A stretch of 23,629 bases of DNA from a virus, in the IMG/VR virus record IMGVR_UViG_3300007754_000061, positions 1-23,629 of that record; one strand, given 5' to 3'. This document shows, piece after piece, positions 1-16,511 of this stretch. A program made the translations under genes and the position numbers. Under the pieces are notes generated by a model. It saw only the letters and a list, made by a program, of their open reading frames with translations. It made no database searches and was not told the origin of the DNA. How positions within the stretch are numbered: the first letter of the stretch is position 1; each line of letters opens with the position of its first letter.

Positions 1-1254
1 GGAGCATCATTTGGTGATGATACAGGAACTTGGGAATTTGACGGGGCAGGAGCATTATCTGAAACAGGAATGACAACATTTAGTGTAACACCGTCAAGTA
101 CTTTGTATATGCAGGGTGGTGGAGTTTCCAGGTATGGAGATGATACAGGTTATTGGAGTTTTGATGGTAGTGGAGCGTTGTCTGAAACAGGAATGACAAC
201 AATTTCAATGACGCCATCTAGTACAGTAGATGTAGATGCGGGTGGTGCAGTTACAATAGATTCTTCAGCAGCAATTAGTATTGGTGGTGATTCAGTTGGA
301 CAAAAGATTACAGTAGGTGGAGATACTGGTACTAGAACTGAAGTAGAATTAAATGCAATTTTAGTAGATATTAATGCTGGAGCCAGTGGAGTCACGATTG
401 ATGCTGGAGCAGCGTCTAGTTTTACAACTTCTGCAGGAGCATTAACATTAGAAGGGGCATCGGGGGTAGATTTAAAAGAAAATGGTACTTCAGTTATTAC
501 TATTGATTCTGCGCGAGATACTTTGTTTGCATCAACTGGGGGATCAACAGGAGACCCAGATGTAGAATTTGATGGTTATGTTAGACATGATGGACAAGTA
601 GAAATAGCCGATACAACAACTTCAACAACAACTAGTACAGGTGCTTTGGTTGTTGATGGTGGTGTAGGTATAGTTGAAAATTTAAATGTCGGAGGAAATG
701 CCGCAATCACAGGTAATTTAACGGTATCGGGAACTACGACCACAGTAGATTCTACCGTAGTAAATATTGGAGACAATATCCTCACATTAAACGCAGCTGG
801 TGGAGCGGTAGATAGTGGTATACAAGTTATAGACGCAGTAAGTACATCACATACAGGATCATTATTATGGAACGCAACCAATGATTATTGGTATAGTGGA
901 ATTAGTGGTTCAACACATTATAGACACCCAGTACAAACCGGACTTTCAGATTTAACAGAAAATAGACCAGTAATTGCGGATGGTAATGGTAGATTAGAAT
1001 CTTCAGCAAATATTACAGATGATGGTTCGACAGTAAATATGGGCGTATCTACTCATGTAACTGGTTCAGTTTTTGTTAGTACTGGAGCAAGTGTAGCATC
1101 TGGTAGTTCAGTAGCTTTCCAGGTTCCTTCAAGTACTCAAGTTGGATATATGTCATCTGCTGATACAACCGCTGTTACTGCTGGATTAGTTGGATATAAC
1201 GCAAGTAATGGAAATTTAACGGTTAGTTCTGTCATTGATGGGGGGACATTCTAA
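1..1254 (+). CDS. Tail fibre / adhesin protein, 5' end outside window
   Basis: The reading frame is open from base 1, so the protein starts upstream; 417 codons are visible. The product is rich in Gly, Ser, Thr, Ala and Asp with few charged or aromatic residues, as in beta-rich trimeric phage fibres. It opens with two copies of a 41-residue repeat (GDDTG.W.FDG.GALSETG). Further on it has the segment GALVVDGGVGIVENLNVGG followed by GNLTVSGTTTT and a 'LLWNATNDYWYSG' stretch, a module order I know from fibre proteins of marine T4-like phages. The C-terminus (GYMSS...GNLTVSSVIDGGTF) is nearly repeated at the end of the next gene. The stop overlaps the next start as TAATG, so the two are probably translationally coupled. 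Which structure the fibre attaches to, and its receptor, cannot be told. Confidence 0.8.
   Translation, partial: GASFGDDTGTWEFDGAGALSETGMTTFSVTPSSTLYMQGGGVSRYGDDTGYWSFDGSGALSETGMTTISMTPSSTVDVDAGGAVTIDSSAAISIGGDSVGQKITVGGDTGTRTEVELNAILVDINAGASGVTIDAGAASSFTTSAGALTLEGASGVDLKENGTSVITIDSARDTLFASTGGSTGDPDVEFDGYVRHDGQVEIADTTTSTTTSTGALVVDGGVGIVENLNVGGNAAITGNLTVSGTTTTVDSTVVNIGDNILTLNAAGGAVDSGIQVIDAVSTSHTGSLLWNATNDYWYSGISGSTHYRHPVQTGLSDLTENRPVIADGNGRLESSANITDDGSTVNMGVSTHVTGSVFVSTGASVASGSSVAFQVPSSTQVGYMSSADTTAVTAGLVGYNASNGNLTVSSVIDGGTF
13..258 (+). repeat. Two tandem 123-bp (41-aa) repeats in the fibre gene
   Basis: Units start at 13 and 136, exactly 123 bp apart and in frame. Both read GDDTG.W.FDG.GALSETGMTT.S.TPSST. 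A 21-bp stretch is identical in both copies (58-78 and 181-201). More copies may lie left of the window. Confidence 0.8.
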
Positions 1255-1496
1255 TGGCGACTTGGAAAAAATTATTAGTATCGGGGAGTATTGCAAAAAT
1301 ATCATCATTATTTGTGACTAGCGGTGCAACTAAAGTGTCAAATAGTGGGAGTTTATTTGTGTTTGCTAACAATTCCGATAAAGAGTTTGGTTATTTATCT
1401 TCTAGTGCCAGTGAAACAGAAACAGATGGTATACCAGGATATGATACAAATGGAAATTTAACTGTAAGTACTTTAATTGATGGAGGATCATATTAA
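1254..1496 (+). CDS. Small fibre-associated protein with W-K-K..SGS N-terminus
   Basis: An 80-aa protein starting MATWKKLLVSGS, a head motif that recurs at the N-termini of the fibre genes at 2931 and 5291. Its C-terminal third (GYLSS...GYDTNGNLTVSTLIDGGSY) copies the C-terminus of the gene before it, so the two proteins probably share a folding or docking module. The start at 1254 is set by the TAATG overlap and a purine-rich GGGGGGA ribosome site 10-16 bases upstream, inside the codons for the previous protein's last Asp-Gly-Gly. The end overlaps the next gene in the same way. It may be a short adaptor or tip subunit of the fibre. No enzymatic motif is visible. Confidence 0.7.
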   Translation: MATWKKLLVSGSIAKISSLFVTSGATKVSNSGSLFVFANNSDKEFGYLSSSASETETDGIPGYDTNGNLTVSTLIDGGSY

Positions 1497-1786
1497 TGGC
1501 ACAGGTAATAAAACTAAAAAGAAGCTCTACTTCAGGTGCAGTTCCATCTACGGGCAATTTAGCATTAGGGGAACTTGCTATGAATACCTATGAAGGTAAG
1601 ATTTTTTTTGAAAAAAATGATGGATCTGCTTCAATACAAACAATATTAACAACAGACTCAAAAACTACAGGATCGATAGAATTAACAGGCGATGTTACAG
1701 CATCAAAATTTAGTGGTGATGGGTCAGCATTAACAAACGTGACAGATCCAAATTCTGTAGTGTTTGGAATAGTTTTCGGAGGATAA
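1496..1786 (+). CDS. Small tail-fibre protein with Mtd-N-like N-terminus
   Basis: A 96-aa protein. Residues 1-40 (IKLKRSST...GNLALGELAMNTYEGKIFF) follow the pattern 'K.RSST.G..P....L..GELA.NT..GK.F', the small beta fold that opens many phage fibre and receptor-binding proteins and resembles the N-terminal domain of the Bordetella phage tropism determinant. The second half (GDVTASKFSGDGSALTNV) resembles the 'GDGSNLTG' segments of the fibres at 2931 and 5291. The start overlaps the previous stop (TAATG) with GGAGG just upstream. It probably forms a small trimeric connector. The family link is from pattern memory, not a search. Confidence 0.65.
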   Translation: MAQVIKLKRSSTSGAVPSTGNLALGELAMNTYEGKIFFEKNDGSASIQTILTTDSKTTGSIELTGDVTASKFSGDGSALTNVTDPNSVVFGIVFGG

Positions 1787-1789
1787 TAA

Positions 1790-2116
1790 ATGGCTAATAC
1801 ATTCAAAAATGCAGCAACAGGATCAAGTACAACATTACAAGCGATGTATACTTGTCCATCAGCGACAACTGCGGTAGTACATGCAATTTATTTAAGTAAT
1901 ATTGACGGTACAAATGCAGCTACTATAAATTTAAGTGTTAGTGGTAGTGCTACGTTTGAGGGCAGGACATATTTGTTAAAAACTGTAAATGTACCTGCGG
2001 ATTCTACAGTAATAATTGAAAAACCAATCAATTTGGGAGCAGGGGATAAATTAGAAACTGAAGCTTCCGCAAACGGAGATATTGATGCGTTTGCAAGCAT
2101 TTTGGAGATAACATAA
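1790..2116 (+). CDS. Small beta-sandwich virion structural protein
   Basis: A 108-aa protein beginning MANTFKNAATGSSTT and ending ...ASILEIT. It has alternating hydrophobic beta strands and no charged helices. This start-to-end pattern (a ligand-free jelly-roll-like fold of about 100-110 aa ending in 'LEIT') matches a common small structural protein in marine phages, usually found next to fibre or neck genes. It starts 3 nt after the previous stop, with GGAGG overlapping the codons of the previous C-terminal Gly-Gly. It ends one base before the next ATG. It is probably a virion decoration or fibre-attachment subunit; its exact place on the particle is unknown. Confidence 0.6.
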   Translation: MANTFKNAATGSSTTLQAMYTCPSATTAVVHAIYLSNIDGTNAATINLSVSGSATFEGRTYLLKTVNVPADSTVIIEKPINLGAGDKLETEASANGDIDAFASILEIT

Positions 2117-2117
2117 T

Positions 2118-2831
2118 ATGGCCGGTACGTTAAAATATATTGGTCAAGAACGATTTGATAGTAAAGTCACTGTCACGGATGGTGGAGCAGAAATAACAGG
2201 ATCGATTGATGTAGATGGTATTATAAAAGAGAGATTAAATTCCCTTATACCAACAATATTAGAAGGTCTTGTAGTACATTCAGATTCTTATAACGTTCTG
2301 GGGTCAAATGCTTTAACTACTGAAGATGGTGAAGCAATTATATTTGATGTAGATTCATCTGAGCATTCAATGTTTCCAGTAAGTGGTTCATCGTTAAAAA
2401 TTACTGGTGATGCTACTATTGACGGAAATTTAAACGCATCACTAACATTAAACGATACTCTACCAGAAGCAGATGACGCATATGATTTAGGTTCAAGTGT
2501 AAAAGAATGGAAAGATTTATATATTGATGGAACTGCAAATATAGATACATTAGCAGTTTCAGATGCATTTACTTATGGAAGTTCAACCTGGAATGAGACA
2601 TCTGGTATAAATGAACTTACAGGGTCGAGTTGGTCTTTTAAGGCAACATCTGGCTCGGGTGATTTATTTTCTATAACTAATACTGATGATGATATTGTGT
2701 TTAGGGTACAGGATTCAGTAGTTATTATGGCAGCGAAAAATACAACTCCTACAGCAGTCTCAGGTGGACTGTTTTATTCAGGATCTGACCAATGGTTTCT
2801 TGGATATGAGAATTTTGGGAGTACAAGTTAG
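2118..2831 (+). CDS. Tail fibre protein, 237 aa
   Basis: The N-terminal third holds a segment (LIPTILEGLVV....TTEDGEAIIF) that weakly resembles the C-terminal part of the 124-aa protein at 5291. The middle has the typical fibre signature AYDLGSSVKEWKDLYIDGTA (about residues 121-140), seen in many T4-like marine fibre proteins and again in the two large fibres of this window. The C-terminus (GGLFYSGSDQWFLGYEN) looks like a compact beta-rich tip. GGAGA upstream of the ATG, inside the previous gene's last codons, supports the start. It closes the run of five tightly linked small genes; a 99-nt gap with a candidate promoter follows. Confidence 0.7.
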   Translation: MAGTLKYIGQERFDSKVTVTDGGAEITGSIDVDGIIKERLNSLIPTILEGLVVHSDSYNVLGSNALTTEDGEAIIFDVDSSEHSMFPVSGSSLKITGDATIDGNLNASLTLNDTLPEADDAYDLGSSVKEWKDLYIDGTANIDTLAVSDAFTYGSSTWNETSGINELTGSSWSFKATSGSGDLFSITNTDDDIVFRVQDSVVIMAAKNTTPTAVSGGLFYSGSDQWFLGYENFGSTS

Positions 2832-2880
2832 ATTTTAGTAAAAGAAAAGTGGAATATGAGAATATAAATTTTAGAAAGAT

Positions 2881-2888
2881 TATATTTA
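2881..2888 (+). promoter_or_regulatory. TATATTTA box, candidate late promoter
   Basis: TATATTTATTA lies 50 nt upstream of the ATG at 2931, in one of the few real intergenic gaps. The same 8-mer precedes several other genes here (9748, 12441, 13186, 14195). It is not the classical T4 late TATAAATA. Confidence 0.45.
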
Positions 2889-2930
2889 TTAATGAATCGT
2901 GAACTGTAAAGTTTACATAGGAGAAACAAA

Positions 2931-4886
2931 ATGGCACAATGGAGAAAAGTACTAGTATCAGGCAGCGCAGCATCAGTATCATCTGTAAATAGTGATGCCG
3001 CAATAACCGCAGGAACCAGTTTTATAATTGGATCTGCTGATATTAATGAAACAGATTTAGAAAAGATTGATGGTATAACTGATGGTGCGGGTGCCGCTAA
3101 TAAAGCATTGGTTCTTGATTCGAATGCAGACATTGCTTCAGGGTTAAGAAATATAACAATAACAGGAACATTTTCTGATGGTAACTATACCTTTGATACA
3201 AGTGGAAATGTATCTGGTTTAGGAACAGTTGGTTCAGGTAATATTACCTCAACTGGTACTGTACAAGGTACAACTATTACAGCAACAACAGCTTTTGTCC
3301 CAGATGCGTCGGATGGTGCAGCTTTAGGAACATCGTCATTAGAATTTAGCGATTTATTCTTAGCAGACGAGGCAGTTATAAATCTTGGTAATGAACAAGA
3401 TGTTACTTTAACTCACGTTGCCGATACAGGAATTCTTTTGAATTCCACACGCAAAATACAATTTAATGATTCTTCTCAATATATTGGTGCTTCAAGTGCC
3501 GCAGATTTAGATATAGCTGCCACAACCGATGTTAATATCGAGGCTACAACACTTGATGTTAATGCTGCGTTGGATGTGTCAGGTGCGACAACTCTTAATG
3601 GAGCAGTTACTCTTGGAGATGCTTCAGGTGATGATATTACAAATACTGGTAGATGGGTTGGAGATTTTGTTCCCAAGTCCGATAGTGCTATTGATTTAGG
3701 AACTTCCGCATTACAATTCGCAGAAGCTCATATTGATGCAGGGTATATAGATGATATTACTGCTACAGGAACTTCAACACTTACTACAGTTGATATTAAT
3801 GGTGGTAATATTGATGGAACTACTATTGGTGCAACATCAGCAGCAGCTGGTACATTTGCAGCAACAGTTGCAACTACTTTAAAAAATGCTTCTGCAGTAG
3901 GAGCATCACATTTAACTGGTTCATTTACTGGTTCATTTGTTGGAGATGGTAGTAATTTGACAGGAGTTTCTCAAGATATTGATACATTAAATGCTTATGG
4001 AGCAGCAACATTACATCAGACACAAGATAAATTCTTAGTATCTGATAATGGAACTGAAAAGAGTATTACATTTAGTAATCTGCAAGATAGCATTTTTGCA
4101 GATGTAAGTGGAGACGCTACAATAGCAGCAGGTGGAGCTGTAACAATAGCAGCAAATGCAGTTGAAGGTTCAATGTTAAATGATAATGTAATTTCTGGAC
4201 AAAGTAATTTAGGTAGTGCTACAGTAGCACAAGAAGATGAATTTTTATTCTCTGATGCTGGAACTATAAAAGCATTAACTTTTTCAAATCTTGAAGATTC
4301 AATGTTTGGAAATTTTAGTGGTGAAGCAACTGTAGCAGCTGGTGGAGCAGTAACTCTAGCAGCAACTAACACTAGTTTGACAACATTAGCGAATTTAACT
4401 ACCGCAGGCGCATTAAATGCAGGTTCGATTACAACAGGGTTTGGATCTATTAATAATGGTGCTTCAGCTATTACAACCACAGGAACAGTAACAGCAGGCA
4501 CATTGTCGGTGACTGGAAATTCAACTATCAATGGCGATTTAACCGTAAATGGTACAACTACAACATTGTCCACTACAAATTTGGCGGTTGGAGATAGTTT
4601 TATATTTGCAGCTACAGGTTCAGCGGCTTCAAATGTAGATGGTGGTTTGATTGTACAAGAAGGTGCTTCAGTCGATAGTGGTTCAGCGATATATCATGAT
4701 ACTGGAGATAACAGATGGGCAGTAGCTAAATCTGTTGCAGCTTCTGCTACCGCAGTAACCGCATTAGAACATGTAGTTACTGTAAAACAGTTAGGTGATA
4801 ATGATGATCCAGTATCAGGTGATAAAGAGTATGGAGCTGGTGAAATGGCAATAAATTCAGATGGAACTATTTGGATTTTTAGTTAA
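2931..4886 (+). CDS. Large tail fibre protein, 651 aa, modular
   Basis: Starts MAQWRKVLVSGS, the head motif also found at 1254 and 5291, after an AGGAGA ribosome site. Residues 30-100 carry the module FIIGSADINETDLEKIDGIT...KALVLD...[16 protein letters not shown], shared with the 1225-aa fibre. 'ALGTSSLEFSDLFLADEAVINL' and 'AIDLGTSALQFAEAHI' are two DLG-type fibre modules. Residues 320-348 hold [20 protein letters not shown], shared with the 124-aa protein. A 70-aa tandem repeat starts at residue 366, and a GDLTVNGTTTTLSTTNLAVGD module follows near 535. There is no S74 or other autoprotease domain at the C-terminus (GAGEMAINSDGTIWIFS), so folding may need another protein. It is almost certainly a fibre or adhesin; receptor unknown. 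Confidence 0.8.
   Translation: MAQWRKVLVSGSAASVSSVNSDAAITAGTSFIIGSADINETDLEKIDGITDGAGAANKALVLDSNADIASGLRNITITGTFSDGNYTFDTSGNVSGLGTVGSGNITSTGTVQGTTITATTAFVPDASDGAALGTSSLEFSDLFLADEAVINLGNEQDVTLTHVADTGILLNSTRKIQFNDSSQYIGASSAADLDIAATTDVNIEATTLDVNAALDVSGATTLNGAVTLGDASGDDITNTGRWVGDFVPKSDSAIDLGTSALQFAEAHIDAGYIDDITATGTSTLTTVDINGGNIDGTTIGATSAAAGTFAATVATTLKNASAVGASHLTGSFTGSFVGDGSNLTGVSQDIDTLNAYGAATLHQTQDKFLVSDNGTEKSITFSNLQDSIFADVSGDATIAAGGAVTIAANAVEGSMLNDNVISGQSNLGSATVAQEDEFLFSDAGTIKALTFSNLEDSMFGNFSGEATVAAGGAVTLAATNTSLTTLANLTTAGALNAGSITTGFGSINNGASAITTTGTVTAGTLSVTGNSTINGDLTVNGTTTTLSTTNLAVGDSFIFAATGSAASNVDGGLIVQEGASVDSGSAIYHDTGDNRWAVAKSVAASATAVTALEHVVTVKQLGDNDDPVSGDKEYGAGEMAINSDGTIWIFS
3018..3235 (+). 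repeat. Fibre cassette, copy A (partner at 6724-6935)
   Basis: This segment encodes IIGSADINETDLEKIDG through NVSGLGTVG and closely matches 6724-6935 in the 1225-aa fibre gene. A run of about 35 bp ending in 'ctggtttaggaac' is identical in both. It is a likely target for recombination between paralogues. Confidence 0.75.
4026..4364 (+). repeat. Two 210-bp (70-aa) spaced repeats in the 651-aa fibre
   Basis: Units start at 4026 and 4236, 210 bp apart. Both encode D.FL.SD.GT.K..TFSNL.DS.F followed by SG.AT.AAGGAVT.AA. They look like a duplicated shaft segment. Confidence 0.7.
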
Positions 4887-4914
4887 AATTATATAAAATA
4901 AATAGAGGTCATAA

Positions 4915-5214
4915 ATGGCGTTAAGAACGGGGAAAACCAGAGTATTGGTTGATGAAGCAGCCAAGTTTGGAAAAACGGAAATTGAATTTTTGTTAACTTT
5001 AATACAAGAATCAATGATTCCAGGAAAATTTTTACAACAAGCAATGGATGTTGTGGTAAAATTGAGAAATCAATATAAATTAATTGATAAACCTAAATGG
5101 GAAGTCAAAAACACAATGTCGATTGAAGAAGAAGTAAAAGAAAGAGCGAAAGCAGCCCTCAAAGAAAAAGAGGGAGAGCTTTGGATAAGAAATAAAGAAG
5201 AAAATGAAGCTTAA
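4915..5214 (+). CDS. Hypothetical helical protein, 99 aa
   Basis: I do not recognise this protein. It is charged (rich in Lys and Glu) and probably mostly helical. Residues 17-52 (KFGKTEIEFLLTLIQESMIP..FLQQAMDVVVKLRNQ) look like two amphipathic helices, and residues 70-99 form a long Glu/Lys helix. No signal peptide, membrane segment or catalytic motif is visible. Its composition is quite unlike the Gly/Ser/Thr-rich fibres on both sides, so it may be a fibre assembly or regulatory factor rather than a structural part; that is inference. AGAGG 6 bases upstream supports the ATG. Its 3' end overlaps a possible 28-codon ORF. Confidence 0.7.
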   Translation: MALRTGKTRVLVDEAAKFGKTEIEFLLTLIQESMIPGKFLQQAMDVVVKLRNQYKLIDKPKWEVKNTMSIEEEVKERAKAALKEKEGELWIRNKEENEA

Positions 5215-5290
5215 TGGTTGGCCCATCTCTTTGGCAGATGATGGGAAGTGGGCTCAAAAGAGTTACCAACCGCGATTGAGGGAAGAATAA
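5204..5290 (+). CDS. Possible 28-aa microprotein bridging two genes
   Basis: An ATG at 5204 (in GAAAATGAAG) opens a frame that overlaps the last 11 nt of the previous gene, fills the whole gap, and stops (TAA 5288-5290) directly against the next ATG at 5291. The predicted product starts MKLNGWPISLADDGKW and ends RLREE, an ordinary soluble composition. Bases here are clearly richer in G+C than the surroundings. A competing 21-codon frame starts at 5214 (MVGPSLWQMMGSG...) by a TAATG overlap. A frameshifted extension of the 99-aa protein, or a non-coding structured leader, are alternatives. No strong ribosome site precedes 5204. Confidence 0.4.
   Translation: MKLNGWPISLADDGKWAQKSYQPRLREE
5216..5271 (+). 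other. GC-rich region able to form nested stems
   Basis: GGTTG (5216-5220) can pair with CAACC (5267-5271). Inside it, GCCCA (5221-5225) can pair with TGGGC (5249-5253), and CATCT (5224-5228) with AGATG (5236-5240) as an alternative. There is no T-run after it, so it is not an intrinsic terminator. It ends just before the ribosome site of the gene at 5291 and could affect its translation. Confidence 0.4.
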
Positions 5291-5665
5291 ATGCCAAATT
5301 GGAAAAAAGTCATAATCTCTGGTTCAGATGCTAGTGTGTCGTCGTTATCTACAAGTGGAGCGATTATAAATGCATCGGCAGTAGGATCATCACATTTAAC
5401 AGGATCCTTTACAGGGTCTTATCAAGGTGATGGAAGTAATTTGACAGGAATCGAATCTGGTATATTTGCAGCAACAGGTTCAATTCAAGCTACCACAAAT
5501 ACAGTACAGGTTACTGGGTCTTTAAGTGTAGATGGCACAATTCAGGAAGCAGGATTTACAATTCCAGGATTGATAGAAAAAATGGTGGTGGATGGTTCTA
5601 GTACCTCAATATTAGATTTTACAACTATAACAAACAATGATGGCGAATTATTAGTAGCTAACTAA
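5291..5665 (+). CDS. Small fibre protein with W-K-K..SGS N-terminus
   Basis: A 124-aa protein starting [19 protein letters not shown], a close match to the N-terminus of the 651-aa fibre (MAQWRKVLVSGSAASVSS). Residues 33-55 ([20 protein letters not shown]) match another part of that fibre. It therefore looks like a shortened paralogue: head motif, one GDGSNLTG module, a beta segment ([14 protein letters not shown]), and a short C-terminal part. GAGGGA about 8 bases upstream supports the start. The next fibre gene follows after 11 nt. It may be the docking part of a two-protein fibre, with the 1225-aa protein (which lacks the head motif) as the distal part; this is inference from order. Confidence 0.7.
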
Positions 5666-5676
5666 GGGAAAGAATA

Positions 5677-8600
5677 ATGGCAAAAACACACAGTAGTTTA
5701 ACAGGCGCAGATTTACATAATAATAAAGGTATAGGAGTCGAAACTTCTGCTAACTTTATGACGATAAGTCAATCTCTAAATATATTGAGTGCAAGTGCAG
5801 CATCAACTGCATCTTTTGGTAGATTTGAAGGAGCTGGAGACTCACATTTTAGTGGTTCTGTAACATTTGGCGGAGACCTGACAATTGGAGATGCTGCATC
5901 AGATTCAGTTTCTATAACTGCTGATTTAACTTCACATTTAATACCAAACGCAGATGCAACTTATGATTTAGGTTCAACTTCTCAAGGATGGAATGATTTA
6001 CACTTAGGTAGTGGTGGAGTTATTAATTTAGATGGTGGTGATGTTACAATGACACATTCATCAAATCTAGTTAGCATTGCTGGAGGAAACACAAGGGTTA
6101 TTAGATTAGAATTAGATTCAGCATCAGATTATATAGATGTTTCAACAGATTTACAAGTAATTGCAGCAGCAGATATTACATTAGACCCAGCAGGTGGAAA
6201 TGTTAAACCAGCTTCAAATGATGACGCGGCACTTGGTGTTGCAGGAACTGGTTGGTCAGATTTATTCTTAGCAGAGGGAGCAGTTATAAATTGGGATAGC
6301 GGCGATTTTACAGCAACTCAAGCAAATAATTTACTTACACTTTCTGGTGGAAACACAAGAGTTGATAGATTAGAAATAGATAGTGCAAATGATTATTTAG
6401 ATGTAGATACAGATTTAAAAATAGTAGCAGCAGCTGATATTACATTAGACCCAGGTGGTAACAATGTTAAACCTGGTTCAGATAGCGCTGATGATTTAGG
6501 TGTTAGTGGCACAGCTTGGAGAAAGTTATATGTAGATGATATAGAATTAAATTCACAAGGTAGTGTAACAAATGCAGTATCAGCATCCATTGGATATATT
6601 AGTGGGTCTGGTAATATGAAGATAGATGGCGCCGCAACATTTGGTGGTGGTTATGGTTCAACGGGAACAACTATTTCTTCAGCGGGCGTAATTCAATCTA
6701 ATGGTAATATAGAAACAGCAGGTAGTTTTGTTATTGGCTCTGCTGATATGAATGAAACAGATTTAGAAAAATTAGATGGTATAACAGATGGAACGGCAGC
6801 GGCAAATAAAGCATTAGTACTAGATGCATCAAAAGACATAGGAACTATTAGGAATTTAACTATTGACGGTGTATTTACTGATGGAAATTATACGTTTGAT
6901 ACAAGTGGAAATGTATCTGGTTTAGGAACGGTTGGATGTGGAGCAATAACTACATCAGGCAATTTAGCAGTAACAGGTACAATTACAGGAGATACTTCAC
7001 TAACTTTAGACTCAACCACTCTTACTACTGCTGAGTTAGGGGTTTTAGATTCTGTGACTGCAGGAACTGCAGCCGCTAGTAAGGCTGTGGTATTAGATGC
7101 AAGTAAAAATATAGCAACCATTGGGACTGTTGGTTGTGGAGCAATTACATCAACTGGAAATAGTTCATTTGCTGGTGGAGTGACGGTCGGAGGAGATTTA
7201 ACCGTAAATGGCTCTACTGTAACGGTTGATGCTACTACATTAAATGTAGCGGACAAAAATATCACGATTGCTAGTGGAAGTACAACTTCAGCAAATATGG
7301 ATGGGGCAGGATTAAATTTTGGTTTAGATGCTGCGGTATCTCAGTTAGCGTATCGACATAGTGATACAACTTTAACTTCAAGTGTAGATTTAGGTGCACC
7401 ACAATTCCATTCAAGTATTACAACTGGTACTGCACCATTTACAGTTCAATCAACTACTGAAGTTGCTAATCTTAACGCAGCTACTGTTGGTGGTAAAACT
7501 ATGGCAGAACCAGGAGCCATTGGTGGCACTACAGCCGCTGCTGGTACATTTACAGATTTAACTGCTACTGCAAACATTGATATTGATGATTCGGGTGGAG
7601 ATGGAGCAATGGATGGTGTTATTATTGGGGCAGCTACAGCAGCCGCAGCTACATTTACAACCGTTAATGGAACTACATTCGATGCTACTACTGATTTTAC
7701 AGTAGGTTCTACTGTAATTACAGACGATTCAATTGTGATGACTCCATCAAATAGTGATACGGTTACTATGGCAGCATCTACTAATGGTGCTTTGACTTTC
7801 ACTACGGTTGATGCAGCAGCCGCAGCAGCAAATCTTTTATTTACAATAGATGGTACTGCTGAGATTGCTTCAGCAGGAGCAATAACATTAGATTCTGGAG
7901 CAGGAATTAACCTTGAACCAGCAGCTGGTTCAGCAATTTTATTGGATGGTACAATTAGTGTAGATGCTGGAGTAGTAACAGGAGCAACATCTATTACATC
8001 TACTGCTTTTGTAGGTGATATAACTGGAGATATTACGGGTAATGCTGATACAGCAACTAAAATCGCATCTATTACGAATAGTAACATTGTACAATTAACT
8101 GAGTCACAAACTTTAACTAACAAAACTTTAACAAGTCCTGTCTTAACAACACCAGCATTAGGAACACCAGCAAGTGGTGTGATGACAAATGTAACAGGAA
8201 CGGCTTCAAATTTAACATCAGGTAAAGTAACAGTAACGGATAATGCAGACAATACAGCCTTTGCAATTCCTTTTCACGATGGATCAGATGCTTTATTAGA
8301 TGATACTGGAACATTAACATACAATCCAGGTACAGCAACATTGTCAGCAACAAGTGCTTCAATTACTTATATAACCTCAAGTAAGGTTGAGGTTGATGCT
8401 ACCTCGTTAACAATTGGTGGAACTTTACTTACTAAGACTATTGCAGATAATATTCAAAACACAAGTGGTACAAATACTGGTGACCAAGATTTATGGGATG
8501 TTGTTGCAGGTGATAGTGGAAATACAACTGCAAATTCTACAACTGATACACTTACAATTGCTGGTGGATCGGGAATTGATACAAGTGTAAGTGCCGATAC

Positions 8601-9354
8601 CGTTACGATTGCTGGTGAAGATGCAAGTGATACCAATAAAGGTGTTGCTTCATTTAGTTCAGATAACTTTAGTGTATCGAGTGGTGCAGTAACCATTAAA
8701 GATAGTGGAGTTATTCTTGGAACTGAAACAACAGGAAATTATGTAGCAACAGCAGTAGCAGGTACTGGTATATCTGTAAGTGGGGCAACTGGAAATGTAA
8801 CTATTTCAAGTGCAATCACAGCAGGTGACGGTTTAACATTAAATACCGCAGACATAGATATAGATGCTGCTCAAACAACAATTACTTCGATATATAATAA
8901 CTCATTGAAAGTTGGATATGACGCGAGTGATAATATATGTTTTGCTACTGGATCTAATGGACAAATTAGTTACTACCAGAATGGTGTAGAAGAATTTAGA
9001 ATGGCGGCTGGTGGTACATTCCACGCTGATGCTGATGTGGTTGCGTATTCTTCAACCGTTGCATCTGATATGAATCTTAAAGAAAATATTACAAATATGA
9101 AATATGGTTTAGATACTGTGATGCAACTTAGAGGTGTAGAATATGATTGGAAACGAAAAGATATGGGACACGATGTTGGTGTTTTAGCACAAGAAGTTGA
9201 AGCAGTTATTCCTGAACTTGTCAAAGAACATGAAGGATTACAAGGTAGAGGAAAATTTAAATCTGTAGACTATAATAAATTAGTACCAATTTTAATAGAA
9301 TCTATTAAAGAACTTAAATCAGAAATTGATGAATTAAAACTAATCAAGAATTAA
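5677..9354 (+). CDS. Long tail fibre with C-terminal S74 chaperone
   Basis: A 1225-aa fibre that probably forms a long trimeric shaft. Visible modules: [18 protein letters not shown] (about 98-115); two 88-aa tandem repeats (115-290); [16 protein letters not shown] at the end of the second; the [25 protein letters not shown] module shared with the 651-aa fibre (about 350-425); and [20 protein letters not shown] (about 506). The last ~100 residues are a Peptidase S74 intramolecular chaperone: SDMNLKENI with Ser1130 and Lys1135 as the likely self-cleavage dyad, then [33 protein letters not shown] and a closing coiled coil. The usual Arg of SDxRLK is Asn. In known members (endosialidases, T5 L-shaped fibre) the domain assists trimerisation and is then cut off. 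Start: AAGGGA ribosome site, ATG 11 nt after the previous stop. Confidence 0.9.
6019..6546 (+). repeat. Two tandem 264-bp (88-aa) repeats in the long fibre
   Basis: Units start at 6019 and 6283, exactly 264 bp apart and in frame. Both read VIN.D.GD.T.T...NL....GGNTRV.RLE.DSA.DY.DV.TDL followed by AAADITLDP and a DLG/ALG...W..L segment. Confidence 0.85.
6724..6935 (+). repeat. Fibre cassette, copy B (partner at 3018-3235)
   Basis: This stretch encodes [18 protein letters not shown] through NVSGLGTVG and aligns along its whole length with 3018-3235 in the upstream fibre gene. A weaker third relative follows at about 7000-7130 ([20 protein letters not shown]). Confidence 0.75.
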
Positions 9355-12483: not shown

Positions 12484-12975
12484 ATGCCTGAGTTAATTGA
12501 TGCAACTGAAATAATGTTTACCCCATTTGAACCGAAAACTAAAAATCGGTATGTCATGTATATCGAAGGTATTCCGGCATACTTGATTAAAACAGCTAGT
12601 AGGCCACAGATTACATTTGAAGAAATAGTTTTAGACCATATTAATGTAAAGAGATATATTAAAGGTAAAGGAGAATGGCAACCTTTAGCAGTTACTTTAT
12701 ATGACCCAGTAGTTCCTTCTGCAGCACAAGCATGTATGGAATGGGTTAGATTATCACACGAGTCAGTAACAGGTCGTGATGGTTATTCAGATTTTTATAA
12801 AAAGGATGTATCTTTTAATTTATTAGGTCCAGTTGGTGATGTGGTTGAAGAATGGACATTAAAAGGAGCATGGGTACAAGATGCAAACTTTAATGATTTG
12901 GATTTTGCAAATGGAACAGATCCAGTAGATATTGAATTACAATTGCGTTATGATTACGCAATTTTACAATTCTAA
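12484..12975 (+). CDS. Tail tube protein (gp19-like)
   Basis: The 163-aa subunit of the inner tail tube, the same length as T4 gp19 (163 aa). Features typical of the family: NRYVMYIEGIPAYLIKTASR near residues 22-41, 'ITFEEIVLDHINVKRYIKGKGEWQ' as the core beta strands, PVVPSAAQACMEWV (about 78-91), the 'YSDFYKKDVSFNLLGPVGDVVEEWTLKGAWV' stretch, and the closing strand IELQLRYDYAIL. AGGAG upstream supports the ATG. In T4 this gene is followed by the portal; here it is followed by a small membrane-type protein, the chaperone and the tape measure, an order closer to P2- or lambda-like tails. Confidence 0.95.
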   Translation: MPELIDATEIMFTPFEPKTKNRYVMYIEGIPAYLIKTASRPQITFEEIVLDHINVKRYIKGKGEWQPLAVTLYDPVVPSAAQACMEWVRLSHESVTGRDGYSDFYKKDVSFNLLGPVGDVVEEWTLKGAWVQDANFNDLDFANGTDPVDIELQLRYDYAILQF

Positions 12976-13226: not shown

Positions 13227-13979
13227 ATGCCCGAAACTACGTTTCCGACGGAAACCATCGATCTGCCGTCGAAAGGATATTTTTATCCTGAAAAAAGTCC
13301 ATTATCAAGTGGTAAGGTCGAATTAAAATATATGACAGCTAAAGATGAAGATGTTTTGACGTCACAAAATCTTATTGCTAAAGGTGTTGTTTTAGATGTA
13401 CTTTTAGATAATTTGATAGTCGATAAAAAAGTCAAAATTGATGATTTATTGATTGGTGATAAAAATGCTTTATTGATAGCTGCGAGAGTGTTAGCTTATG
13501 GTAAAGAATATGAGTTTGAAGTTATTTCGCCTGTTACTGGAGAACCTACTACACATAATTTGGATTTAACTTCATTGAAGGATGTTTCAGTAGATTTTAG
13601 TAAGGTATCTAAAGGACAAAATACATTTGAATTTACTTTACCTACTACAAATAGAGTTATTAAGTATAAATTATTAACTAGTGGTGATGTTGATAATATT
13701 GAAAAACATGCTAAATCATTAAGTAAAGTTAGTGATATAGATAGATCTCTTACTACTAGATTAAAACATATGATACTTGAAGTTGATGGTAATTCTGAAC
13801 GATCATTTATTAATAACTTTGTAGATAATGAATTTTTCGCTGTAGATAGTAGATCATTTAGAGAATATATTTCAGATAACACCCCAGATATCGATTTAGA
13901 AATAACAATTGATGTGGATGGGGAGGAGGTAGAAGTTACTGTCCCGATGACGGTACAGTTTTTTTGGCCTTCCTCCTGA
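13227..13979 (+). CDS. gp26-like baseplate/tail assembly chaperone
   Basis: A 250-aa protein of the T4 gp26 type (Pfam T4_baseplate family). Conserved stretches: IDLPSKGYFYPEKSPLSSGK (11-30), YMTAKDEDVLTSQNLIAKG (35-53), then DDLLIGDKNALLIAARVLAY (72-91), and the ending VPMTVQFFWPSS. In T4 gp26 belongs to the baseplate hub assembly group, and relatives sit where tail assembly chaperones lie, between tube and tape measure. That is its place here: tube at 12484, probable tape measure at 14556. AAGGAGA supports the ATG. The 3' end overlaps a second frame that lacks its own start and probably extends this protein by ribosomal frameshifting, as in gpG/gpGT systems. The codons for Gly-Glu-Glu at 13921-13929 are GGG-GAG-GAG, unlike the usual GGA/GAA. 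Confidence 0.85.
   Translation: MPETTFPTETIDLPSKGYFYPEKSPLSSGKVELKYMTAKDEDVLTSQNLIAKGVVLDVLLDNLIVDKKVKIDDLLIGDKNALLIAARVLAYGKEYEFEVISPVTGEPTTHNLDLTSLKDVSVDFSKVSKGQNTFEFTLPTTNRVIKYKLLTSGDVDNIEKHAKSLSKVSDIDRSLTTRLKHMILEVDGNSERSFINNFVDNEFFAVDSRSFREYISDNTPDIDLEITIDVDGEEVEVTVPMTVQFFWPSS
13959..13965 (+). promoter_or_regulatory. Candidate +1 frameshift site, seven T's
   Basis: In frame 0 the codons are CAG-TTT-TTT-TGG, five codons before the stop (13977-13979). A +1 slip of tRNA-Phe from TTT to TTT keeps all base pairs and leads into GGC at 13966. A Shine-Dalgarno-like GGGAGGAGGT (13921-13930) lies about 28 nt upstream, and 13922-13929 can pair with 13969-13976 over 8 bp. Confidence 0.55.
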
Positions 13980-14187
13980 GTATAAAACTCAGATCCACGA
14001 ACAGATATTTCAACTAACATTTAATTCTAGAGGTTCAATACCCTTTGAACAAGCCTATAATATGCCAGTTTATCTAAGAAGATGGTATCTTAAAAGATTA
14101 GACAAGGCTTATAAGGATGAAAACGAAGCTATAGAAAAAGCACAAAAAAAATCCATAAAACCAAATTTTCCAAAAATTAAAAAATGA
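13966..14187 (+). CDS. Frame +1 extension of the tail chaperone
   Basis: A 73-codon frame reads GLPPEYKTQIHEQIFQLTFN, then IPFEQAYNMPVYLRRWYLKR and a Lys/Glu-rich helix. The pattern 'PPEY...H.QIFQL.......YNMP..LR..Y' looks like the C-terminal part of tail assembly chaperones in marine T4-like phages. The frame is closed by TGA at 13948-13950 and has no ATG, GTG or TTG before the conserved part; its first ATG is at 14062, with no ribosome site, in the middle of the apparent domain. The most economical reading is a fusion of residues 1-246 of the gp26-like protein plus these 73 residues (319 aa). A separate short protein from 14062, or a non-standard start, are the alternatives. Confidence 0.65.
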   Translation, partial: GLPPEYKTQIHEQIFQLTFNSRGSIPFEQAYNMPVYLRRWYLKRLDKAYKDENEAIEKAQKKSIKPNFPKIKK

Positions 14188-14240: not shown

Positions 14241-14495
14241 TTGGCTAAGTATGTAGTAAAAGAAAATAAAATAATTACAGAATTTCTTGGTAGTCTTTTT
14301 AAAGCAGTAGCAAAAAGGAAATCTTCAAAAGTTTTGAAAGCTCTATCAAGAGATCCAGTTATGAAAAGACATATAAAGGCTGCTGATAAAATAGGTAAAG
14401 ATATTATACAGCATATAGAAAAGAAGAAAAAAGATGATCCTGAATGGGCTGATAGATATGATGCCGTATCAGATTATTTTGATTCTTTAGACTAA
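14241..14495 (+). CDS. Small basic helical protein with TTG start
   Basis: An 84-aa protein (MAKYVVKENKIITEFLGSLF...) starting with TTG. The start is fixed by AGGAG (14230-14234) with a 6-nt spacer, and no ATG lies near. It is mostly helical and basic in the middle (AVAKRKSSKVLKAL, then HIEKKKKDD), with an acidic end (YDAVSDYFDSLD). I do not know the family. It sits between the chaperone extension and the probable tape measure, the place of small tail-assembly or hub factors (T4 has genes 51, 27 and 28 here), so a tail assembly role is likely by position only. The weak TTG start could keep its level low. Confidence 0.65.
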   Translation: MAKYVVKENKIITEFLGSLFKAVAKRKSSKVLKALSRDPVMKRHIKAADKIGKDIIQHIEKKKKDDPEWADRYDAVSDYFDSLD

Positions 14496-14555: not shown

Positions 14556-16511
14556 ATGGCAGATCCAAAATTAACAAAACAACAAAAAGATGACCTTAAA
14601 GAGTTTAATGAGTTGTTAAAACAACAACCTAAACTTTTTAGGTCTATACTAGGTATTTCTGAAACCATCAAAAAATCTGTTACTGATACTTCAGATGCTA
14701 GTGAAAAAATTGTTAAAAGTAATAAAGCTTATTTAGATATAGCAAAACAGGTTTTATCAAATACAAAAAATATTCATAAAGAAACTTTTGATGTGGCAGA
14801 CCTTAGTGATCAAATTCTAAAAGCTCAAAAATCTGGAGATAAAGTTTTAGTAAACCAATTAAAACAATTAAATAAATTACAGCAAGGGCAGAAAAGATAT
14901 AATAATGTTGTAAATGCGGGAGCTAATTCTATAGAAAAAATGATGAGTGGTATAGAGAGTACATTTCGTCAAATTCCGTTCATTGGAGATTTTCTAGCAG
15001 ATGCAATAAATTTTGGTGATATGAGCAAAAATATGCAAGGTTCATTTAGAGAAGGAGCTAAAGCTTCAGGTGGGTTCTTGAAAGAGGGGTTATACCAAGG
15101 CACAGTTGAAGGTACTACTTCAGGAATGGTAGAAAGTGCTAATCTTGGAAAATCCTTAGGTAAAAAAATGGGCCAGTGGTTTAGATCTCCAGTTGGTGAA
15201 GGTGTAAGTAAGACTGGTAAAGAGTTGGTGGTAGTAGATAAAAACGCAAAAGGTGTTGCAGGGAAGTTTAATGTGATGAAGTTAGGAGCAATAGGACTTG
15301 CCGCAGCTGTATCAACAATGGCAGCTAAAATGGCCAAGTTTGCATTTGAAACTGGTCTTTCTCTAGAACGGAGTATCAAATTAGGTCCATCATTATTTAT
15401 TAATTCAGGTTATGTTAAGTCGATGGCGGAAGAGTTTGGAACCATCAATGATGTAAATACTAAAATAGCATGGCAACTTAAAAAACAATCATTCTTTTAT
15501 GGAATAGAAGCAGAACAAGCAGTAAAAATATTAAGAATACAGAGTGCTTTATCTGATAGTAGCCATGAACAATTAATTAATGTACAGAACACAGTTGCTG
15601 AATTTGCAAGATCTAAAGGAGTATTGCCTTCAAAAGTATTTGACGATATAGCAAACTCTACAGAATTGATGGCAAAATATGCTGACGGTACTGCTGAAGG
15701 ATTTATGAAAGCAGCTGTACATATAAGAACTATGGGTATAGGATTGGAAGTAGCTGACCAGATAGCTTCTCATTTATTAGATATAGAAGGCTCTATAAAT
15801 GCACAATTTATGGCTAATTCAGTACTTCAGAAAAATATGAATTTAGATAGAGCTAGACAATTGGTGTTGAATAATGATCTAGTAGGAATGATGGAAGAAG
15901 TTAAGAAGCAATTAGGTGGAGAGTTAGAATTTCAAAGATTAAATTTGGTAGAAAGAGACTTACTTAGTAAGGCTATAGGAACTGATATTTCAAATGTAGC
16001 CAAGATGATTTCAGCACAGGAAGCCTCAAATGAGGTTACGAAACAAGCTCAAGGAAATTATAAACTATTGGGTGCTATAATTGGTGGAGTAGTAGGACTA
16101 TTAGTCGCGGCTGTTCCAGCTATAAGAACTGCAATGTCAGGTGGTCTTTCTTTTGCAGTAGATGCTATGTCTGTAGCAAAAGGTCTGACTGTAGTAGGAA
16201 TAGGAGCAGCAGGTGGAGCAGCAGTTGGATCAACCTTCGCTAAACAACAAGATTTTGTTTCTAGACCAGGTATGAATCCAATACCATTTAGTACTGATGA
16301 TACAATTATAGGAACAAAAAATCCAGCTGGATTGGGCGGGGGTGGTAATTCTCAGATAGCAATGGCCATTACTAATCAAACAAGAGCAATGAATAAATTA
16401 GAACAAACTATCAGTAAAGGACAAGCACAATCAACTCGACAACGACAGAGCATGATTGATGCAACTACAAAAGGTCAAAATAAACTTTATAGAGGATTTA
16501 TAGAGGGTTAA
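14556..16511 (+). CDS. Probable tail tape measure protein
   Basis: A 651-aa, mostly helical protein. The N-terminal 130 residues are rich in Lys, Gln, Asp and Leu with coiled-coil character (LTKQQKDDLKEFNELLKQQ). Hydrophobic Gly/Ala segments occur near 243-264 (LGAIGLAAAVSTMAAKMAKF), 503-525 (LLGAIIGGVVGLLVAAVPAI) and 543-563, as in tape measures, which sit inside the tube and end up in the host membrane. Position agrees: after tube and chaperone, before baseplate genes, the place of T4 gene 29. At about 1.5 angstrom per residue it predicts a tail near 100 nm. No lysozyme or peptidase motif is visible. The ATG at 14556 has only a weak AGAAG site upstream. The next gene starts 2 nt after the stop. 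Confidence 0.7.
   Translation: MADPKLTKQQKDDLKEFNELLKQQPKLFRSILGISETIKKSVTDTSDASEKIVKSNKAYLDIAKQVLSNTKNIHKETFDVADLSDQILKAQKSGDKVLVNQLKQLNKLQQGQKRYNNVVNAGANSIEKMMSGIESTFRQIPFIGDFLADAINFGDMSKNMQGSFREGAKASGGFLKEGLYQGTVEGTTSGMVESANLGKSLGKKMGQWFRSPVGEGVSKTGKELVVVDKNAKGVAGKFNVMKLGAIGLAAAVSTMAAKMAKFAFETGLSLERSIKLGPSLFINSGYVKSMAEEFGTINDVNTKIAWQLKKQSFFYGIEAEQAVKILRIQSALSDSSHEQLINVQNTVAEFARSKGVLPSKVFDDIANSTELMAKYADGTAEGFMKAAVHIRTMGIGLEVADQIASHLLDIEGSINAQFMANSVLQKNMNLDRARQLVLNNDLVGMMEEVKKQLGGELEFQRLNLVERDLLSKAIGTDISNVAKMISAQEASNEVTKQAQGNYKLLGAIIGGVVGLLVAAVPAIRTAMSGGLSFAVDAMSVAKGLTVVGIGAAGGAAVGSTFAKQQDFVSRPGMNPIPFSTDDTIIGTKNPAGLGGGGNSQIAMAITNQTRAMNKLEQTISKGQAQSTRQRQSMIDATTKGQNKLYRGFIEG

Follow-up and report, generated by a model that had tools for sequence, protein, structure and literature searches.

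A conserved UUU_Y site and an upstream hairpin predict a +1 frameshift at the end of gp26-like tail assembly chaperone genes

The stretch of DNA analysed here (the window) comprises the 23,629 nucleotides (nt) of IMG/VR record IMGVR_UViG_3300007754_000061, from a marine phage, and carries a gp26-like gene that appears to specify a tail assembly chaperone in a short and a long form. All features named below lie on the + strand. The short form, TAC-N (13227–13979, 250 amino acids, aa), is read in frame 0 and ends at the TGA at 13977–13979. A second frame, +1, overlaps its end: it is closed 5' of the shift site by a TGA read from the sequence at 13948–13950, is open from a run of seven T (13959–13965) to the TGA at 14185–14187, and contributes a 73-codon extension domain, TAC-C (13966–14187; GLPPEYKTQ...PKIKK). 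The shift site itself reads TTT TTT T GGC (13959–13968; TTT TTT TGG C in frame 0), so that the predicted long form, TAC-NC (13227–14187), with TGGC read as one step, would have 319 aa. An RNA hairpin (13937–13955) lies just upstream of the site, and a Shine-Dalgarno (SD)-like tract, GGGGAGGAGGT (13920–13930), precedes it, 28–29 nt 5' of the slip codon. A preliminary description of this DNA had proposed the +1 frameshift, and its positions for the frame-0 end, the upstream TGA and the T-run, like the length of the product, are exact. It had also stated that the +1 frame lacks a start before its conserved part; the earliest ATG, GTG or TTG is indeed an ATG at 14062, 32 codons inside that part.

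When IMG/VR was searched with gene and extension and with a profile of each, about 290 loci came up, 285 of which contain both parts (contigs fetched twice are counted twice). One common script placed the extension in +1 at 282 of these 285. Bacterial and archaeal assemblies yielded another 10 loci; nine hold both parts, all nine with the extension in +1. Both frames are under purifying selection across hundreds of independent assemblies. Once identical junctions were removed, 202 distinct ones were left: TTT TTT TGG (153), TTT CTT TGG (28), TTC TTT TGG (14), TTT TTT TAC (5), and TTT CTA TTC and TTT TTA TGG (1 each). All 202 have UUU with U or C as the next base (UUU_Y), and UUU_Ynn belongs to the +1-prone tetranucleotides of bacteria (PMC5009743). 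The preliminary description had taken the T-run for the slip element, on which tRNA-Phe slips and fully re-pairs. Such a slip fits our data and the shift frame is conserved in relatives, but the run of seven is not universal: 158 junctions have it (153 TTT TTT TGG and 5 TTT TTT TAC), while the remaining 44 lack it and keep UUU_Y, which is the conserved element. Either of the two slip codons can serve, since TTC TTT TGG requires a slip on the second codon and TTT CTA TTC on the first.

Codon choice on the 5' side of the slip site departs from the phages' own usage over about 12 codons: Arg is CGA in 66/66 cases (background 10%), Gln is CAG in 33/33 (19%), Asp is GAC in 11/11 and Asn is AAC in 14/14. 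While the background frequency of T at third positions is 38%, T is never found before TTT-first sites, and T-ending codons stand 5' of the slip only at TTC TTT TGG sites. Absence of this T removes the possibility of -1 pairing at TTT-first sites.

The hairpin of the window has a stem of 7 base pairs with one G-U pair, formed by TACTGTC (13937–13943) and GACGGTA (13949–13955) around the loop CCGAT, and is separated from the first slip codon by 3 nt (CAG). Across 103 representatives the 33 nt before the slip have a mean minimum free energy of -7.8 kcal/mol, while seven control positions give -1.3 to -3.6, and the z-score against synonymous shuffles is -2.05 (controls -0.22 to +0.05). This signal is maximal directly adjoining the slip site and weaker upstream; the end of the stem is usually 2–6 nt, most often 3–4, from the first slip codon. 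In 46 aligned relatives, 79.5% of the cells are paired in the register of the window stem versus 20–58% in slid registers, and the covariation score is 0.363 against 0.199 ± 0.021 for shuffled alignments, none of 500 shuffles reaching the observed value. Other members pair in another register that lies 6 nt further in sum. The SD-like tract is also recurrent: SD-like 5-mers occur within codons -15 to -7 in 70 of the 103 representatives, whereas 22% are expected from synonymous shuffles and 0–5% are seen at control positions. Its distance to the slip is fairly constant: the tract mostly ends 21–26 nt before it and in most members lies 21–30 nt away; the A-site codon is TGG. A pairing of the upstream purine tract GGAGGAGG with the downstream CCTTCCTCC, which the window allows, was rejected as not general: locus L110 and others have no downstream partner. 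Structure downstream of the site gives z of -1.41 for codons 0–12, -0.4 to -0.5 for codons 5–22 and -1.04 for codons 20–32; we claim no downstream structure, and for codons 0–12, which code in two frames, the null is unfit.

By profile and fold the short form is a member of the T4 gp26 family. It matches PF12322 (T4_baseplate) with E=2.7e-8 and 34.2 bits (curated cutoff 24.5) over residues 26–247, and phrog_150 ('baseplate hub') with E=2.6e-10. Short form and extension were folded separately with AlphaFold2. For the TAC-N model (predicted local distance difference test, pLDDT, 90.7) the best named match in BFVD is the SP-15 'baseplate hub subunit' (TM 0.84, E=7.2e-19), and there are further matches to T4-like hub proteins. 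The extension matches only the unnamed family phrog_20255 in PHROG, and weakly (E=8e-4). When the profile of the +1 extensions was compared by hhalign with that of the T4 gp51 C-terminus and the extensions found in the -1 frame of other T4-like phages (see below), the pair gave a probability of 95.7% and E 9e-9, and the match covers cyanophage 'gp51' too; both parts are homologous to T4 gp26/gp51. The model of the extension has three helices (pLDDT 87.8). Its Foldseek matches to annotated tape measure and tail chaperones are weak, with E above 1, and not significant, and no relative by sequence or by fold was found in the PDB.

The chaperone gene stands between tube and tape measure genes, as in loci of the gpG/gpGT type, the tape measure gene of the window being assigned by position only. 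Upstream is a gp19-like tail tube protein (12484–12975; phrog_4542, E=1.9e-24), and downstream a probable tape measure protein (14556–16511), suggested by its position and hydrophobic stretches; searches of PHROG and Pfam gave no significant match for the latter, while its position agrees with the annotated tape measure of Flavobacterium phage immuto. Between chaperone and tape measure lies an 84-aa open reading frame (ORF) with a TTG start and an SD sequence (14241–14495). A family search with it gave no match; Microcystis phage Mel-JY01 has a small ORF at the equivalent place. Further upstream, a tail-fibre-like protein of 1225 aa (5677–9354) has a C-terminus that we take to resemble an intramolecular chaperone of the S74 type, and several repetitive fibre-like ORFs neighbour it at 70–5665. 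Outside the window, the same +1 arrangement occurs at locus L337 (3001–3762) on the 2.8-Mb chromosome of a bacterial metagenome-assembled genome, CP070664.1, of candidate division WOR-3. This copy is perhaps part of a prophage or of a contractile injection system.

The +1 extension is also present in distant phages: Mel-JY01 (TTT TTT TGG), immuto (TTT CTT TGG), LR756508 (TTT CTA TTC), Streptococcus phage GXN1 (TTC TTT CGT), Bacillus phage SP-15 (TTT TTT CAC) and Rhodothermus phage RM378 (TTT TTT TGG), UUU_Y being retained in the last three too. Short hypothetical proteins are annotated over it in immuto (36 aa), SP-15 (39 aa), Mel-JY01 and RM378 (L113 4700–4946, L116 4540–4763, L112 4746–4982 and L147 2960–3174), and they look like truncated or mis-started calls of the extension. 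In eight other T4-like phages that we checked (P-SSM2, S-PM2, HTVC008M, Cr30, phiM12, phiW-14, KVP40 and GAP32) the extension is encoded in -1 instead, and a T precedes the TTT TTY codons in every one. P-SSM2, S-PM2 and Cr30 have an SD-like GGAGGGA about 9 nt upstream of the -1 site, a distance at which SD sequences are known to stimulate -1 shifts (PMC5009743), and the -1 ORF carries the annotation gp51 in P-SSM2 and KVP40. In T4 the family is represented by two separate genes, both PF12322: gp26 encodes 208 aa and gp51 encodes 249 aa, with a C-terminus about 48 aa longer. Campylobacter phage CP81 also has two. Aligning T4 gp26 with the -1 group, SP-15 and GXN1 shows no variation in the Phe-Phe dipeptide. 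The -1 pattern T_TTT_TTY is absent from the +1 clade, where the extension is in +1 and TTT-first sites have no preceding T. We lean towards the view that the same Phe-Phe codons of the gp26 family serve for -1 (T_TTT_TTY, with an SD-like tract in some phages) or for +1 (no T, hairpin), that evolution has changed the shift direction at a single homologous site, and that the 5' hairpin is a dedicated +1 stimulator.

Several other processes could place the extension behind the gp26-like part. A -2 slip, as in phage Mu, with the tRNA moving two bases back on the T-run, would lead to the same frame, and TTTTTTT in 158 of the 202 junctions permits the re-pairing. At TTT CTT TGG (28) and TTC TTT TGG (14), however, it would be mismatched, with TTC under tRNA-Leu or TCT under tRNA-Phe, whereas +1 re-pairing on UUU_C or UUU_U is perfect there; the position of the hairpin also fits +1 (PMC6321510), and we consider a -2 slip unlikely. 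The same 42 sites make slippage of RNA polymerase on the T-run implausible. Such slippage would generate mixed mRNAs, and the seven T of the window and most junctions would suit it, but TTTCTTTGG and TTCTTTTGG sites have T runs of 3–4 only, and the synonymous and hairpin constraints suit a ribosome, which leaves this process very improbable. A sequencing error in the T-run, which the preliminary description had named as a danger, or a decaying gene deserves next to no credence: the many independent assemblies, the selection on both frames and the TTT CTT TGG and TTC TTT TGG sites, which lack a long run, already refute it.

The extension might instead be a separate gene, with its own, perhaps non-standard, start or expressed by termination-reinitiation. 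An SD-like tract does lie upstream, and short ORFs are annotated over the extension in several databases. Among the three loci that depart from the +1 arrangement, the gp26 gene is broken upstream in L260, while in L319 and L324 (around 3700–4010) the extension is a separate gene that starts with ATG in another frame. In these two, which have an own start as foreseen in the preliminary description, the slip codons read TTC TTG and TTC CTT. Thus UUU is lost just where a real start exists, and, judged by their sequences, L319 and L324 represent natural losses of the frameshift. Elsewhere, 157 of the 202 junctions have no ATG, GTG or TTG in the +1 frame before the junction, and the first possible start is typically 16–59 codons inside the conserved part of the extension. 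The conserved sequence starts with the very first codon that follows the slip site, G1 and L2 being nearly invariant. A separate gene appears to us about as improbable as the -2 slip, or slightly more so.

The best-supported reading remains that of the preliminary description, in which ribosomes shift by +1 where the gp26-like gene ends, with the extension in +1 at 282/285 and 9/9 loci. We put the probability that the locus encodes a two-form tail assembly chaperone whose long form arises by +1 frameshifting at UUU_Y at about 0.9. It should be noted, however, that a number of observations weigh against this picture or against the part of the hairpin in it. At 45 of the 202 junctions a potential upstream start codon is present. 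Drawing the codons from the local G+C-rich pool reduces the hairpin z to -1.1, although this pool is itself shaped by selection. RNAalifold found no single consensus structure for the 46 sites, since clades use different hairpin registers. The hairpin is weak or absent in the most distant +1 phages (-2.6 kcal/mol in RM378, 0.0 in GXN1), and some close relatives, for example L178, L197 and L227, fold to 0.0 as well, so it is not obligatory.

As we infer the occurrence and efficiency of the shift, most ribosomes would stop at 13979 and release TAC-N, while a minority would slip one base forward at UUU_U within 13959–13965, the peptidyl-tRNA-Phe re-pairing perfectly 1 base downstream. GGC would then be the next codon, and translation of the 73 codons of the +1 frame would give TAC-NC. 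On 70S ribosomes, engineered hairpins that refold directly 5' of a slip site raise +1 and lower -1 frameshifting, thereby acting like an internal SD duplex (PMC6321510). Since the phage hairpin is placed as in those constructs, we propose that it refolds on leaving the mRNA exit channel, behind a ribosome paused at the slip codons, and that it would favour +1 and prevent -1, like the short-spaced SD duplex in the gene for release factor 2. For the SD-like tract, which immediately precedes the hairpin, one may speculate that it acts via the hairpin as a bridge or simply pauses the ribosome. Family membership, a location flanked by tube and tape measure genes and the precedent of gpG/gpGT point to a chaperone function; by analogy with phage lambda, TAC-N would coat the tape measure protein, and TAC-NC, through its added helical domain, would recruit tube subunits.

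Two statements of the preliminary description, that no frameshift was described for the gp26 family and that a link of gp26 to gpG/gpGT would be new, are out of date. Vladimirov, Gautam and Davidson (Virology 2022, 566:9-15) had already connected gp26 and gp51 with tail chaperones, according to PMC12846349 and PMC10885494: T4 makes the short and long forms from separate genes, and several T4-like groups are reported to use frameshifting. In an earlier review T4 was still set apart from the frameshifted tail chaperones, and archaeal myovirus HSTV-2 was mentioned as a very likely +1 case (PMC5009743). Our search of the open literature turned up neither an account of +1 frameshifting in the gp26 family nor one of a conserved 5' hairpin occurring naturally at a phage +1 site, and the +1 direction in this family together with the upstream hairpin seems new as far as we found. 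The loci offer more than 200 distinct natural sites for +1 frameshifting that involves bacterial-type ribosomes and no stop codon, and their candidate stimulator has until now been studied mainly in constructs. With separate genes in T4 and both -1 and +1 at homologous codons in one chaperone family, the question of what sets frameshift direction becomes directly testable. The long chaperone is also missed or truncated in the annotations of immuto, SP-15, RM378 and similar phages.

Compared with the T4-like chaperones, the family (PF12322), the homology of the extension to the gp51 C-terminus and the position by tube and tape measure genes are similar; the difference is that T4 uses two genes, and the cyanophages, HTVC008M, KVP40, phiM12, Cr30, phiW-14 and GAP32 have the extension in -1, whereas here we find +1, UUU_Y and a hairpin. 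Like lambda gpG/gpGT, the locus would make a short and a long chaperone from one gene by a frameshift just 5' of the tape measure gene, but lambda shifts by -1 and the proteins have no detectable sequence relation. With the release factor 2 gene (prfB) it shares the +1 direction and a duplex just behind the ribosome. The slip in prfB is CUU_U, which the 28 sites reading CTT TGG carry too, whereas the duplex here is an intramolecular hairpin and the codon that follows is a Trp sense codon; if our reading is true, the hairpin would be an RNA-only counterpart of the release factor 2 SD duplex. A further parallel comes from the engineered upstream hairpins acting on +1/-1 frameshifting of Huang, Cho and Chang (2018; PMC6321510) and from the SARS-CoV 5' stem-loop. 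A stem-loop set directly 5' of the slip site favours +1 and attenuates -1 there, as the phage hairpin would here, but those elements are constructs or a -1 attenuator, while the hairpin of the phages occurs naturally and is conserved next to a +1 site.
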